A stretch of DNA of 64,000 bases, taken from NCBI GenBank assembly GCA_016401345.1, contig JAEACG010000003.1, positions 62,001-126,000 of the forward strand, in the 5' to 3' direction. The stretch's first letter is position 1; every line of letters begins with the position of its first letter. This document shows positions 5,290 to 10,899 of the stretch, one piece after another. Under the pieces are notes generated by a model. The model ran no database searches. It worked only from the letters and a program-made list of their open reading frames with translations, and was not told the origin of the DNA. This DNA comes from Fictibacillus nanhaiensis. GTDB lineage: Bacteria > Bacillota > Bacilli > Bacillales > Fictibacillaceae. The position numbers and the translations under genes are program-made.

Positions 5290-6764
5290 GAACAGAGTAC
5301 ACCTTTGCTATAAATCTCTTTTATCTTTGATCTTGCAATTTTTCCGCTCGACGTATAAGGAAACTCTTTTGTAAAAATAATGTGTTTAGGTACTTTGAAT
5401 GTCGAAAGATGCTCTCTACAAAAACGTTGTATATCACGAACAGTAAGGTTAGCATCTTCTTTTTGGATGATTGCTGCTGAAACCTTCTCTCCCCAATACG
5501 AATCTGGCATCCCAAAAACAACAGCTTCCTCAACTCCATCTAGTGAGTGCAATACTCTTTCGATTTCTTCAGGATAAACGTTTTGTCCTCCAGAGATTAT
5601 CATGTTGTTACTGCGTCCTATAATGAACAAATCTCCGTCATCATCTAGCTTAGCCAAGTCACCTACTGTCAGCCATCCATTGTCGTCCCAAACTTCTTTA
5701 TTCGCATCTGGCCGATTAATATAGTGTGAAAACAGCATCTCACTTTTTACAAAAAGAGTACCTATTTCTCCTTTTTCCACTTCGTATCCATCTTTTCGAA
5801 CAGACAGTTCTACATTATGAAAAGCGCGTCCTACCGATAACGGCTTTTGTAAGGCAGTTCGGTGATTAATAAAGCTTACAAAGCTTAATTCAGATGCACC
5901 ATAAAACTCGAAAAGCTCTGTTTTAGGAAACAGATTATTTATTTTCCTTTTAAGTCCAGGTTCCCATTTGGCCCCTGAAGATATTATTCTTTTTAGTCTT
6001 GGATCACCGTTCTGAGAATCCATTTCTTTAGTTAGTGCAGCAAGCATAGTAGGAACAGCATAAAGAGCTGAAACTTCGTCTGACTTGATCTCTTTTAAAG
6101 TTTGAGTAGCTGAAAACTTGGACAACAGTTTCACCTTTCCACCTAAATAAATCGTACTGATCGCTGCGTACAAAAATAACGAATGAACAAGTGGTCCAGG
6201 TACGAGTATTGCGTCACTCTCAGTAAGGCCAAAGTCTGTTTTACTGCATGCAAAGCTTTTAACCCAAGAACGATGGTTGCGTACAAAACATTTCGGAACA
6301 CCCGTTGAACCTGAAGTGAACCCCATATAAAACAATGAATCGTCTGCAACAGTACTTTTTACTTCTTCACTCTGGCTTAGGCTTACATCATCAATAGCAG
6401 AAATTAGAGTGATCTTTCCGTATTTCATTTTGCTCTGCCATTTTTCTGTAGTAATAACCAAATCCGGCTCACATTGTTTTAGCCTATCTTCCAGCTCCTT
6501 TTCTTTCCATTTCAAATCAAGGGGAATACAAATCCAGCCAGCAGAAATGGCTCCTAAGAAATATTGTAGAAAATCGATTCCGTTAGGCACATATAGCGCT
6601 GCTTTTCCTTGGGTTCCTTTAAAGGACTGCTTATGAAAATATGAAGCGATTTTCTTAACATTGCGGTCCAGTTCTTGATAGGTTATTTTATCTTCACCCT
6701 TTTGAATCGCTGTATTCTCAGGATGTAAAAGGGCACTTTGTTGAATCGTATCGGTAATTAGCAC
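5286..6764 (-). CDS. yhfT: Acyl-CoA synthetase / AMP-dependent fatty acid ligase (YhfT-like)
   Basis: 492 residues, GTG start 7 nt after GGGAGG. Adenylate-forming motifs are all visible: P-loop-like FTSGSTGVPK (about 150-160), FYGASELSF (A5), GWLTVGDLAKLDDDGDLFI and GRSNNMIISGGQNVYPEEIE (hinge), and the C-terminal Lys in SSGKIARSK. It should activate a carboxylic acid to acyl-AMP and then acyl-CoA. Sitting behind bioY under a BirA operator, it may make a biotin precursor such as pimeloyl-CoA (inference; the substrate is not shown). Confidence 0.9.
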   Translation of the reverse strand: MLITDTIQQSALLHPENTAIQKGEDKITYQELDRNVKKIASYFHKQSFKGTQGKAALYVPNGIDFLQYFLGAISAGWICIPLDLKWKEKELEDRLKQCEPDLVITTEKWQSKMKYGKITLISAIDDVSLSQSEEVKSTVADDSLFYMGFTSGSTGVPKCFVRNHRSWVKSFACSKTDFGLTESDAILVPGPLVHSLFLYAAISTIYLGGKVKLLSKFSATQTLKEIKSDEVSALYAVPTMLAALTKEMDSQNGDPRLKRIISSGAKWEPGLKRKINNLFPKTELFEFYGASELSFVSFINHRTALQKPLSVGRAFHNVELSVRKDGYEVEKGEIGTLFVKSEMLFSHYINRPDANKEVWDDNGWLTVGDLAKLDDDGDLFIIGRSNNMIISGGQNVYPEEIERVLHSLDGVEEAVVFGMPDSYWGEKVSAAIIQKEDANLTVRDIQRFCREHLSTFKVPKHIIFTKEFPYTSSGKIARSKIKEIYSKGVLCS

Positions 6765-6806
6765 AGAAGTCCTCCCTATAGAAAAAGACTGTCCGAAGAC
6801 AATCTA

Positions 6807-7379
6807 TTAATGGCTGATCGTATGATTTTGAGTAAGAGCAGTCTGATTTTTAAATAATCTTTGTCTTATTTTAACACCAAGTGCGGCTGCGATTGTAGCT
6901 TTTATCAAATCGCCTGGTAAGTAAGCTAAACCTGAAACGGCAGCTGTCTCCAAACTGATGTCCATTACAAATGCAACAACTGGAATACCGCATAGGTAAA
7001 CAAAGACGATTCCTGCGACGAAATTGTATATGAAGACCTTCCACACTTGAAGTGGCTGTCTTGCTTTTTCGATCAATAACCCTATTAAGAAAGCTGATAA
7101 TGGCCAGCTAAGAATATATCCAGCACTTGGTCCTACAAAAACACCTGCGCCACCGCGTCCACCAGCTAATCCTGGAACACCAGCTGCAATTACTAGTAAG
7201 AAAACAATCATACTTAATCCGCCTAGTCTGGCACCAAGCACCACACCTGCAAGCATTACACCAAGAGTTTGTGCTGTAATGGGAACTGGTGTAAAAGGCA
7301 AAACGATTGGGGGCAGGAATCCTAATACAATCATGATTGCTGCGAATAAAGCTACATACGTCATCTCTTTTGTTTTCAT
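6807..7379 (-). CDS. bioY: Biotin transporter S component BioY
   Basis: 190 residues from ATG 7379 (MKTKEMTYVALFA), preceded by GAGGTG; an upstream in-frame start at 7397 is not needed. It has about six membrane segments and the BioY signature (PITAQTLGVMLAGVVLGARLGG; GGRGGAGVFVGPSAGYI). BioY binds biotin with high affinity and works alone or with an ECF energising module; no EcfAT genes are in the window. It is the first gene of the operon, directly downstream of a BirA operator. Confidence 0.95.
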   Translation of the reverse strand: MKTKEMTYVALFAAIMIVLGFLPPIVLPFTPVPITAQTLGVMLAGVVLGARLGGLSMIVFLLVIAAGVPGLAGGRGGAGVFVGPSAGYILSWPLSAFLIGLLIEKARQPLQVWKVFIYNFVAGIVFVYLCGIPVVAFVMDISLETAAVSGLAYLPGDLIKATIAAALGVKIRQRLFKNQTALTQNHTISH

Positions 7380-7401
7380 GAAAAAACACCTCATCATAGT
7401 T

Positions 7402-7433
7402 ATGTCAACTTATATTAATTTTAAGTTAACATT
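7402..7433 (-). promoter_or_regulatory. BirA operator overlapping the bioY promoter
   Basis: The arms ATGTCAACTT and AAGTTAACAT are separated by about 12 A/T bases, matching the BirA site pattern TTAACTT-N-AAGTTAACA of Firmicutes with one mismatch. On the minus strand a -35 (TTGAAG, 7441-7446) and -10 (TAAAAT, 7418-7423) lie 17 bp apart, and the operator covers the -10. Biotin-loaded BirA should therefore repress the five-gene operon. Confidence 0.85.
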
Positions 7434-7567
7434 AAAAGCGCTTCAATAGCAATACGTAATTGATTCAGCTATAATACTTAACAAATAGAAGTTTTTAAAA
7501 ATAAAAGGAAAAATAGCCACAATTATGGTAAAATAGTACAAACATTAATTACGTTGGAGGAAAAGGC

Positions 7568-7747
7568 ATGGAATTTAAAATCGGTGATATTATTGAAACA
7601 TTCGACGGCTTAAAAGGAGAAATTACTTCGTTGTTGACCAACACCGCTGTTGTGGACTTTTCCGTAACAGAAAACTATTCGGAGCATTTTGAAGATGCGA
7701 AGCAAGTTGTACGTTTGAACGATATTAGACAAATCATAAATAGCTAA
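7568..7747 (+). CDS. DUF2187 family protein (YkvS-like)
   Basis: 59 residues, ATG preceded by GGAGG. The sequence MEFKIGDIIETFDGLKGEI, then VVDFSVTENYSEHFE and a basic-acidic end, fits the DUF2187/YkvS family of SH3/KOW-like small proteins. Function unknown. It is transcribed divergently from bioY and ends before a strong hairpin at 7832-7878. Confidence 0.8.
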   Translation: MEFKIGDIIETFDGLKGEITSLLTNTAVVDFSVTENYSEHFEDAKQVVRLNDIRQIINS

Positions 7748-7831
7748 ATCTTATATAGAAATAAACGACTTTTTAATGGAATGTAGCAGTTTTTTTCGCT
7801 CCAATCCATTTTCAATGATTTTCAACAATAC

Positions 7832-7878
7832 AAAAACAGCTCTCTGTGCAGCGAAACTGCGCAGAGAGCTGTTTTTTG
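7832..7878. terminator. Bidirectional terminator
   Basis: Arms AAACAGCTCTCTGTGCAG and CTGCGCAGAGAGCTGTTT, flanked by A- and T-runs on both sides. It serves the converging YkvS-like and YtxH-like genes. Confidence 0.9.
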
Positions 7879-7883
7879 TATAT

Positions 7884-8498
7884 TTATAAGTTTTTTCGAT
7901 TATTTTGTGAAGTCATACCTACTGAAACGACGTTTGAATCATTTTCTCTTGTGTAAGTCGTTTCTTGCGCTGATCCAGTGGAATAATCGTGCAACTTGTC
8001 ATTTCCGATCGGGTTATCAGCTAGTTCGGATCCTGCTTCTTTTAATTTTGAACCGATGCTGCCAAGCTCCCCTTTTGTTTCTTTAGCTGTCGATAACACA
8101 TCACTTGAGATCTCTTTTAGCGTATTAATGTTTCCAAAAACGTCTTTATTGAGACGCTCGTAGAGTGCTTGCGCGTCGTTGATCGCATCTTTTAAGGTGG
8201 TGCTAGCTGTTTTGAACTGGCTGATCATCTGATCTTTCACTTCACCTGGATTTTGTTTGACTTCCGTAATCATTTTGCTGGAACTATCCTTCAACCCTAC
8301 CGCAGTGTTCTTTACTTTTGACCGTGTATTATAATCAATCAAGGCAAGTGCCCCACCAACGATACCGCCAATTACGATTCCTGTTAGTAGCTTGCTTTTT
8401 TGCGGATCTGCCACTCTCTCTCGTTGCGCTGTACCGTAAGCATCTTCAGGATACATGCCGTTTTCATATCCGTTTGTAGTGTTTACACTCTGTACCAT
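7884..8498 (-). CDS. YtxH-type membrane-anchored protein
   Basis: 204 residues, ATG 7 nt after GAGGAGG. There is one Gly-rich transmembrane segment at about residues 37-55 (LLTGIVIGGIVGGALALI) followed by a long amphipathic helical region (about 60-165) and a Ser/Thr-rich tail. This is the layout of YtxH-domain general-stress proteins of Bacillus. Partners are unknown; a membrane or nucleoid-associated stress role is only an inference. Confidence 0.7.
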   Translation of the reverse strand: MVQSVNTTNGYENGMYPEDAYGTAQRERVADPQKSKLLTGIVIGGIVGGALALIDYNTRSKVKNTAVGLKDSSSKMITEVKQNPGEVKDQMISQFKTASTTLKDAINDAQALYERLNKDVFGNINTLKEISSDVLSTAKETKGELGSIGSKLKEAGSELADNPIGNDKLHDYSTGSAQETTYTRENDSNVVSVGMTSQNNRKNL

Positions 8499-8660
8499 TT
8501 TAAGTCCTCCTCGATTAATTTTTTTCGTAGTTAGGGGATTCCCTTTTCTCTAAAAGCTAAACGTTTGGGTAGGCTGTTTCAGGATATTTTCAGCTTTTAC
8601 ATAAAAGTTTCAGTTAGTCCTCATACTAATGAAAATCTGATGTGATTGGAGGGTTTCACT

Positions 8661-8801
8661 ATGGGAAAAGACAGACAGGAAAAGAAGTTGCGTGAATCTG
8701 GCCGAGTTGAATCTGACCGTGACCAAGATTTGAAATATTCTGGTGCTACTAAGATGGAAGGTCCAGATGAAGCGCGTGCACGCAACCATCAAGATCAATA
8801 A
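8661..8801 (+). CDS. YpzI-like small protein
   Basis: 46 residues, highly charged (MGKDRQEKKLRESGRVESD, then SGATKMEGPDEARARN), ATG preceded by TTGGAGGG. It closely resembles the short YpzI family of Bacillus, as I remember it; the function is unknown. A terminator follows within 12 bp. Confidence 0.75.
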   Translation: MGKDRQEKKLRESGRVESDRDQDLKYSGATKMEGPDEARARNHQDQ

Positions 8802-8812
8802 TCAAAAATGGA

Positions 8813-8845
8813 GCAGCTCACCAAAAGGTATGAGCTGCTTTATTA
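8813..8845 (+). terminator. Terminator after ypzI-like gene
   Basis: Arms GCAGCTCA and TGAGCTGC with a 10-nt loop, followed by TTTATTATTG. Confidence 0.75.
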
Positions 8846-8892
8846 TTGTTTCAGTAGTCGGTATGAGTCGAAAATTCGATAAAAAAATTTAT

Positions 8893-8966
8893 CCGTGAAA
8901 TTAAAATGATTTACCGTGAAATTATGGAGCTTATCCGTGAAATTAATTCACATTACCGAACTATGA
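8893..8966. repeat. 21-bp periodic array 1 (core CCGTGAAATTA)
   Basis: The core CCGTGAAATTA starts at 8893, 8914 and 8935, with a degenerate fourth copy (CCGAACTA) at 8956. Each start is exactly 21 bp from the last and the 10-bp spacers differ. Two other arrays with the same period but unrelated cores lie at 38916 and 56045. Confidence 0.85.
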
Positions 8967-9074
8967 TGAATAACTATCCTTATGCGGCGCACACATAGCT
9001 AGTATGTACTCTAGGAAAAGACACACTTCAAAAAAAGAGGACTCTACTTCTCCAAATGAAGTTCGTCCCCTTTT

Positions 9075-9699: not shown

Positions 9700-10071
9700 A
9701 TGAAACTTGGTGCTTTTTCTGTGAGTTTAAGTGTAAAAGATATCCACCGTTCGAAAGCTTTTTATGAAAATTTAGGATTTGAATCTTTAGGTGGCAACAT
9801 CGAGCATAACTGGTTGATTATGAAGAATGAGGATACGGTTATCGGCTTGTTTCAAGGTATGTTTGAGCAAAACATTTTGACTTTCAACCCTGGATGGAAC
9901 CAAAATGCGAAAAATCTTGAAAATTTCACTGATATTCGAGAGCTTCAGAAACAGCTGAAAGAAAGAGGAATTTCGTTATCGACTGAAGCGGATGAAACGA
10001 GTGAGGGTCCTGCGAGTTTGACGATTGAAGATCCAGATGGAAACCTGATCCTGATCGACCAGCATAGATAA
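9700..10071 (+). CDS. VOC family (glyoxalase/bleomycin-resistance-like) protein
   Basis: 123 residues, ATG 6 nt after AAGGAGG. It has the two beta-alpha-beta3 modules of the vicinal oxygen chelate fold: FSVSLSVKDIHRSKAFYENLGF at the N-terminus and SLTIEDPDGNLILIDQH at the C-terminus. A metal-binding Glu/His set cannot be assigned fully, so the substrate is unknown. It is monocistronic with its own terminator. Confidence 0.85.
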   Translation: MKLGAFSVSLSVKDIHRSKAFYENLGFESLGGNIEHNWLIMKNEDTVIGLFQGMFEQNILTFNPGWNQNAKNLENFTDIRELQKQLKERGISLSTEADETSEGPASLTIEDPDGNLILIDQHR

Positions 10072-10078
10072 TACATAA

Positions 10079-10118
10079 AACAACGTCCAGATCGCATGCG
10101 TGATCTGGACGTTTTATT
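10079..10118. terminator. Bidirectional terminator
   Basis: Arms AACGTCCAGATC and GATCTGGACGTT around GCATGCGT, with a T-run on the plus side and an A-rich flank. Confidence 0.85.
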
Positions 10119-10120
10119 TG

Positions 10121-10564
10121 TTAATCGTTTAGTATTCCCATCGCGATAATAAACCAGTTGGCTCCGTTTTTGCTTCCGATTTGGAAGAATAGCGCAATGA
10201 TCTCTTCTTTTGAAAAATGTTTCGTGAGTCGGTTGTATAATTCATCTGGCAGTTGTCCGTGATAAGCCATGATGTGATCAGCGAGTTCGAGAGCTAGACT
10301 TTCACGTTCTGATAGTTCTGCGTTTCCTTGCTTCATCGCTGTTTTTCGTGAGGACTCATCCAGAGTCCCGTAGTCCATGCTTTGTCAGTAGTCGCACCCA
10401 TTGTTTGAGGCCGCTCGTAAGCGGAGCATCTCCATAAGTTCAGGCTCTAGTATGTCGTTCAGCGCTTTTTCCATCTGCTGAAAAGCATCTAGAATACCTG
10501 GTGCGTTAGCAAGGGATTTCTTAAAGGGTGTTCCTTCCACATCTACTTCTGGTAAACGTGCCAT
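10121..10564 (-). pseudogene. Carboxymuconolactone decarboxylase (AhpD-like) family gene with TGA at the second CxxC cysteine
   Basis: From ATG 10564 (after AGGAGGAGG) the frame reads MARLPEVDVEGTPFKKSLAN and on to NNGCDY, then TGA at codon 60, then QSMDYGTLDESSRKTA to a normal stop at 10121, 147 residues in all. Homologues carry CxYC here, so the TGA stands exactly at the second redox Cys. The rest of the gene shows no frameshift or other stop and keeps a good start site. Either this is a fresh TGC/TGT-to-TGA nonsense mutation (or read error), or the codon is decoded as selenocysteine. AhpD-like selenoproteins are known in other bacteria. A hairpin starts 16 nt after TGA (GGACTC-TGGAT-GAGTCC). 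Confidence 0.75.
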
Positions 10565-10899
10565 CTGTATTCCTCCTCCTCAAATAAAAAATTTCTTTTT
10601 TCTTTCCCTTTTACCTTACACCATTCTTCAAAGTAGTCCTATGTTTCTGTTTAAGGGGATGAGACTGAATGCGCTTTCTGTCGAATTTGAGTCTTATCAC
10701 CTACCCACTTTATATTTTAAGATAATAAATAGGTCATGCGGACCTAGAAGCTCTTGTAGTAATATCTTCTCTGTGATTGTAGTCTTTTGGTAAATAATCA
10801 TTATTTTCGAATAGTATTAAAGGGTTTTGTTGAAAATTGTTGAATTCCTTACCATCGGAGCCAAGCTTGCTTGGTAAATACAACAGAGGAGTGATTTTT
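10565..10899. other. Gap upstream of the subtilase
   Basis: No gene seen. It holds the ribosome binding site of the minus-strand CMD gene at its left and a small perfect hairpin CCAAGC-TT-GCTTGG at 10861-10874, just before the subtilase ribosome binding site (AGAGGAG). No confident promoter could be assigned. Confidence 0.4.

Follow-up and report, generated by a model that had tools for sequence, protein, structure and literature searches.

A predicted selenocysteine-containing AhpD-like protein in Fictibacillus, with a conserved SECIS-like hairpin after its in-frame TGA

Introduction

CMD-like and AhpD-like selenoproteins with a CxxU motif, in which U is selenocysteine (Sec), have been listed since 2005, according to the sections consulted of PMC1088965, PMC13188914 and PMC9312934. 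The set from the Sargasso Sea includes a CMD-like family (PF02627, CxxU) and an AhpD-like family (TIGR01926/COG2128, CxxU), as given in Table 1 of PMC13188914 and in the consulted part of PMC1088965. For the Bacillales, a survey of 2006 counted three selenoprotein families with three selenoproteins (PMC1794560, in the portion available), and a selenocysteine synthase was noted in Aneurinibacillus tyrosinisolvens in a paper of 2021 (PMC7996765, likewise in part), in agreement with the selA that we saw in our own scan of this genome. The available part of PMC5029168 makes no mention of the AhpD-like gene described here, and our search, beyond whose reach most subscription journals lie, returned no literature on Fictibacillus and selenocysteine.

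A structurally characterized protein of this fold is PA0269 of Pseudomonas aeruginosa, which is AhpD-like and a weak peroxidase; the entry 7xw1 is titled AhpD from P. aeruginosa. The relay of PA0269 is formed by Glu36, Cys48, Tyr50, Cys51 and His55 (PMC3141380, in the sections consulted). Here, we analyze a 64-kb stretch of Fictibacillus DNA (the window), part of a 4.28-Mb genome designated G000, in which an AhpD-like gene is interrupted by a single TGA at the position of the second Cys of the CxxC motif.

Results

The AhpD-like (CMD) gene occupies positions 10121..10564 on the minus strand of the window and would encode 147 residues with the TGA read as Sec. Its frame runs from ATG at 10564 to TAA at 10123-10121 and is broken by one in-frame stop only, the TGA of codon 60 (10385..10387, minus strand), in the context NNGCDY-TGA-QSMD, as a first-pass annotation of this DNA had correctly described. 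The Cys codon 57 (10394..10396, minus strand), which provides the first residue of the putative CxxU, is invariant both in the wider alignment (13/13) and in the genus alignment (17/17). Direct reading of the sequence places a Shine-Dalgarno-like stretch, AGGAGGAGGA, upstream of the ATG (10571..10580, minus strand); the start codon is ATG in 14 and GTG in 3 of the 17 genus sequences, and a purine-rich stretch is found 5' of the start in the 14 that begin with ATG. Directly 3' of the stop codon, at 10082..10113 of the minus strand, a likely intrinsic terminator was recognized by eye as AACGTCCAGATC...GATCTGGACGTT followed by GTTTT. This strong hairpin with a T-rich flank lies between the AhpD-like gene and a convergent glyoxalase-like gene (9700-10071), and it is probably a terminator common to both. 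ARAGORN found no tRNA gene within the 64-kb window. Standard gene callers are expected to end the gene at codon 59 or to label it a pseudogene.

The read-through protein was searched against 120 relatives and gave matches at E <= 1e-10 in 23 genomes. Seventeen of the 18 genus genomes match, each with exactly one internal stop, which is TGA in every case, and all these TGAs fall in a single alignment column (17/17). Apart from its own genome (99% identity), the 16 other genus orthologues are 73-92% identical to the window protein. Comparison of orthologues at codon 60 had been suggested as a check in the first-pass annotation, and the presence of TGA in all 17 found among the 18 genomes supports Sec. 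Pooled over all pairs in the genus, pN/pS is 0.10 before the TGA and 0.16 after it, the latter value indicating that the part 3' of the TGA is under selection as protein. In the remaining genus genome, G012, which carries the full Sec machinery (see below), nothing matched the gene at E <= 1e-10, and the gene is thus dispensable there. The neighborhood of the gene is retained at 9 of 10 Fictibacillus loci of the named collection, with an upstream neighbor that we take to be subtilisin-like (9/10 loci) and a downstream neighbor that is presumably DUF1648-like (8/10 loci), and at the F. aquaticus locus 0 of 10 tested neighbors matched. The plasmids searched at E 1e-10 gave no match to the gene.

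The SECIS-like hairpin is located at 10352..10368 on the minus strand and is composed of a 6-bp stem, GGACTC (10368-10363) and GAGTCC (10357-10352), closing the loop TGGAT (10362-10358). The stem begins 16 nt and the loop 22 nt after the TGA, and loop position 2 is G; sequence, spacing and loop G are all as first noted for this locus. The proposal that this is a SECIS-like element gained considerably from comparison, as all 6 pairs form in 22/22 TGA sequences (100% of cells; 19 of the 22 are distinct, and identical rows were counted once in the covariation set) and two-sided changes occur at 4 of the 6 stem pairs. Within the genus, GGACTC/GAGTCC is changed to GGATTC/GAATCC; outside it, the variants TTGCTC/GAGCAA and CTGCTC/GAGCAG are found. 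Covariation of the stem scores 0.481, compared with 0.170 on average after shuffling, and 0/500 shuffles came as high; controls with a slid partner gave covariation of 0.003-0.221 and 34-47% of cells paired. Two of the five measures were less extreme, 24/500 shuffles being as high for the number of pairs with two-sided changes and 42/500 for further pair types. When 390 offsets (-150 to +239) were tested, only offset 0 gave 6/6 pairs enclosing a loop of 5 nt in 17/17 genus sequences, the runner-up being offset +215 with 10/17. The hairpin after the TGA is not a product of chance. Furthermore, the six hairpin codons are the minimum of synonymous variation among 136 windows in the genus (pS 0.21, median 0.62). 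The loop also codes for Leu-Asp-Glu, which is partly retained in the Cys forms described below, so that loop conservation alone is weak evidence; the stem is broken in these Cys relatives, with 4/6 pairs in one (G269) and 2/6 in the other.

A search of the same genome for sel genes, another check suggested in the first-pass annotation, also came out in favor of Sec. In G000, selA (540.3 bits), selB (361.6 bits), selD (404.5 bits) and tRNA-Sec (58 bits) all score above curated cut-offs and all lie within 8.7 kb of contig C1: selA at 244732-246078, selD, with one internal TGA, at 246498-247430, selB at 251006-252868, and tRNA-Sec, to which ARAGORN assigns the anticodon UCA, at 253291-253383. The same four genes exceed the cut-offs in 18/18 genus genomes, G012 included. 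Within the sel cluster of contig C1 (locus L119), a PhnC/PhnE/PhnD-like ABC transporter is encoded at 6570-8983 on the minus strand, whose binding protein also reaches 185 bits against a putative selenate-binding model (cut-off 250); this transporter is a candidate selenium uptake system. A family 4 glycosyltransferase (L119 9002-9997, minus strand) adjoins selB and scores 56.8 of the 300 bits required for SenB (selenosugar synthase) and 226 of 400 for the GPMC-system model.

At least three Sec-type TGA genes were found in G000, encoding SelD, a SelW-like protein and the AhpD-like protein. In the genes of both SelD and the SelW-like protein, the frame contains a TGA with a paired hairpin 3' of it. 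The SelW-like CxxU gene (L119 5151-5384, minus strand, contig C1) is directly upstream of selA, with its TGA and a 6-bp hairpin, and its 78-residue product scores 73.5 bits against PF10262, 57 bits against TIGR02174, which is above the cut-off, and 81.4 bits against NF041051, below the cut-off of 88. Other genomes, G012 among them, likewise have SelW-like genes close to selA or selD. Among the loci compared, the hairpin is 6/6 paired in 20/20 SelW-like sequences and in 29/30 SelD sequences, the remaining one having 2/6, and two-sided changes are visible by eye in both stems. Counted from the TGA, the loop starts at position 26 in the SelW-like and AhpD-like genes and at position 37 in SelD. 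Formate dehydrogenase was considered as a further Sec user and rejected, no internal stop being present in any listed match from the 18 genus genomes; G000 itself has two formate dehydrogenases above the cut-off, both stop-free.

We then looked at relatives outside the genus. A scan of named genomes revealed TGA in the homologues of Melghirimyces profundicolus (78% identity) and A. tyrosinisolvens (61% identity). Among 398 Bacilli genomes, 71 have a match at E <= 1e-8 and 9 a match above 130 bits; the codon classes given here cover these nine, all other matches scoring 63 bits or less. Two of the nine belong to the genus, five others have one TGA (G293, G289, G259, G279 and G270; 47-79% identity) and two have no stop. 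The sequences of G293 and G289 are those of the Melghirimyces and Aneurinibacillus records, and each was counted once. In the stop-free relatives the Sec column holds TGC (G269) or TGT (G364). A search of the phylum (398 genomes, E <= 1e-15) returned, apart from G000 itself, only two distant homologues, both in G114, and one of the family of G289 (11 genomes, E <= 1e-25) only the two known genes. A more distant CMD homologue, G210:C1:3635635-3636039 (39.7 bits), has one internal TGA in a genome with selA, and it could be a further selenoprotein of the CMD fold or a broken gene.

The Sec machinery tracks the codon, with selA and tRNA-Sec in 5/5 TGA genomes outside the genus and in 0/2 Cys genomes. 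In the former, selA scores 576-605 bits and tRNA-Sec, with anticodon UCA, 63-68 bits. In G269 and G364, selA matches stay below the cut-off, at 19-20 bits. The top RF01852 hit of each was discarded as tRNA-Sec because ARAGORN identifies it as tRNA-Ser(UGA); this includes the hit of 48.6 bits in G269, which slightly exceeds the Rfam cut-off of 47. The DNA of the G269 Cys form (L137) still has its 4 stem pairs around a TGGAT loop and is possibly a decayed SECIS left after a Sec-to-Cys change.

A tree was built from 6 of the 17 genus sequences, the 5 other TGA sequences, the 2 Cys sequences and 6 distant homologues, the last all with CxxC (6/6). In this tree G270 and G364, both on long branches, come together, and the Melghirimyces gene falls within Fictibacillus with modest support (83/73). 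The latter gene is carried on a 6.2-kb contig together with an ORF that is recombinase-like by eye; this setting and the placement inside Fictibacillus suggest that the Melghirimyces gene was horizontally transferred.

That the product belongs to the AhpD-like/CMD proteins and has a site of the CxxC type, as the first-pass annotation had proposed, is borne out by its family, profile and fold matches, although its similarity to known families is weak. The window protein narrowly passes the gathering score of PF02627 (24.1 bits against 23), and two relatives reach 27.3 and 26.1 bits. It reaches the cut-off of no NCBIfam model. The top NCBIfam match, over residues 22-142, is NF053654 (GroundWater_YciW, 'YciW-related (seleno)protein'), with 36.9 bits where 310 are required, which marks the protein as related to that family and not a member of it; 17/17 genus members match this model at E <= 1. 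Against TIGR01926 (peroxidase-related enzyme) it scores 14.7 bits, below the cut-off of 81.8, and the best E-value of a genus member (n = 17) is 1.3e-4. A profile of 13 relatives matches PA0269 (2ijc, 2o4d) at E 4.5e-16. An AlphaFold2 model computed from 13 sequences, with Sec entered as Cys, is of moderate confidence (pLDDT 75.1, pTM 0.71), and its top Foldseek matches are the P. aeruginosa AhpD-like structures 7xw1 and 2ijc (E 4.6e-4, TM ~0.6).

By sequence, Glu36, Cys48, Tyr50 and Cys51 of PA0269 correspond to Glu45, Cys57, Tyr59 and Sec60 of the window protein, whereas the relay His55 corresponds to Asp64, so that 4 of the 5 relay residues are represented, the second Cys by Sec. Asp64 is found in the genus and Melghirimyces rows (7/13), and Gln, Arg or Glu takes its place in the other six; Tyr59 is replaced by Phe in one Cys form. 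The six distant CxxC outgroup homologues all retain His at the relay position (6/6). As the relay His is absent, peroxidase activity through a relay of the PA0269/AhpD type is not assured.

Discussion

TGA is one base away from TGC and TGT, and two close relatives among the Bacilli carry one or the other of these codons, as would be expected if the in-frame stop were a recent TGC/TGT-to-TGA nonsense mutation, or a read error, in what is now a pseudogene of this strain. The first-pass annotation had left Sec and mutation side by side and had taken mutation to be the simpler on the ground that Sec machinery is absent from most Bacillaceae; the Sec half of that proposal has stood, and the preference for mutation has not, given that here the sel genes are present and the TGA is shared by the genus. 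Indeed, the conservation of TGA at the same codon in 17/17 orthologues refutes a strain-specific event, to which the pN/pS of 0.16 after the TGA and the covarying hairpin are also contrary, and we give this explanation practically no credence. It is very improbable, too, that the TGA ends a 59-residue product and that a second product of 85 residues starts at ATG 10378, even though this ATG, which begins 9 nt downstream of the T of the TGA, opens an 85-aa frame and is invariant in the genus (17/17) and present in the Melghirimyces gene. No Shine-Dalgarno-like stretch can be read in the sequence 5' of it, the short helix 58-62 of the structural model would be severed, and the codon is GTC, GTT, GTT or GCC in the distant TGA relatives L132, L138, L139 and L141. 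Since these four lack the start but keep both the TGA and the hairpin, a restart at Met63 is rejected.

If a suppressor tRNA inserted Cys or Trp at the UGA in place of Sec, this would fit with the Cys found here in both relatives without TGA, yet TGA terminates 11 of the 41 window ORFs of at least 200 aa (ORFs delimited mechanically), which speaks against a general reassignment of TGA, and at ten loci chosen for their tRNA-Sec matches ARAGORN found UCA anticodons only in tRNA-Sec; we see very little chance that such a suppressor is at work. The reading of codon 60 as Sec is the one that we favor, and we hold it to be very probable, on comparative sequence grounds, that this TGA is a Sec codon and that the gene encodes a selenoprotein.

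According to this model of Sec insertion, tRNA-Sec(UCA), SelA, SelD and SelB, whose genes are present, would supply Sec, and the hairpin that begins 16 nt after the UGA would serve as a bacterial SECIS recruiting SelB, as its covariation suggests. The UGA of codon 60 would be decoded as Sec, and translation would continue to the TAA at 10121. By homology, the resulting 147-residue AhpD-like/CMD-fold redox protein would have a Cys57-Asp-Tyr-Sec60 center, in which Sec60 would stand where PA0269 has Cys51, the second of the two motif cysteines. Sec60 would probably attack a peroxide or other oxidised substrate and may form a selenenylsulfide with Cys57, to be resolved by a thiol reductant. Extrapolating from AhpD, we consider it likely that the protein has an AhpD-like redox role in which Sec60, the second residue of CxxU, is the nucleophile.

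The small number of Sec-type TGA genes found, together with the stop-free formate dehydrogenases, makes the AhpD-like enzyme a plausible reason for which the genus keeps its Sec machinery, although G012 has the machinery without the gene. Related Bacilli carry the protein in a Sec or a Cys form, and 4/6 hairpin pairs remain in one of the Cys forms, which provides a compact system in which to study Sec/Cys exchange. More speculatively, and in our view rather unlikely to hold in full, these proteins may represent a branch, within the Bacilli, of AhpD-fold enzymes with Sec in which the relay His has been abandoned and Glu45-Cys57-Tyr59-Sec60, together with the invariant His102 (MAYHG), serves a reaction other than simple peroxide reduction, for example reductive dehalogenation. 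In this view, Sec and Cys forms would have replaced each other, and the gene would have passed from one genus to another, in parallel with the Sec machinery. The AhpD-fold debrominase Bmp8 (6ohj) is a weak Foldseek match to our model (E 0.026).

In conclusion, the window gene resembles the CMD-like and AhpD-like selenoproteins of the Sargasso Sea, as far as the sources consulted describe them, in its family, in the predicted position of Sec as second residue of CxxU, and in having, 3' of the UGA, a stem-loop whose apical loop contains a G. Unlike that set, with which it was compared as listed in those sources and against whose TIGR01926 model its score stays below the cut-off, it belongs to the Bacilli. 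As CxxU selenoproteins of the CMD-like and AhpD-like type have long been listed, the kind of protein predicted here is already known, and the Bacilli branch is what this locus adds to it.
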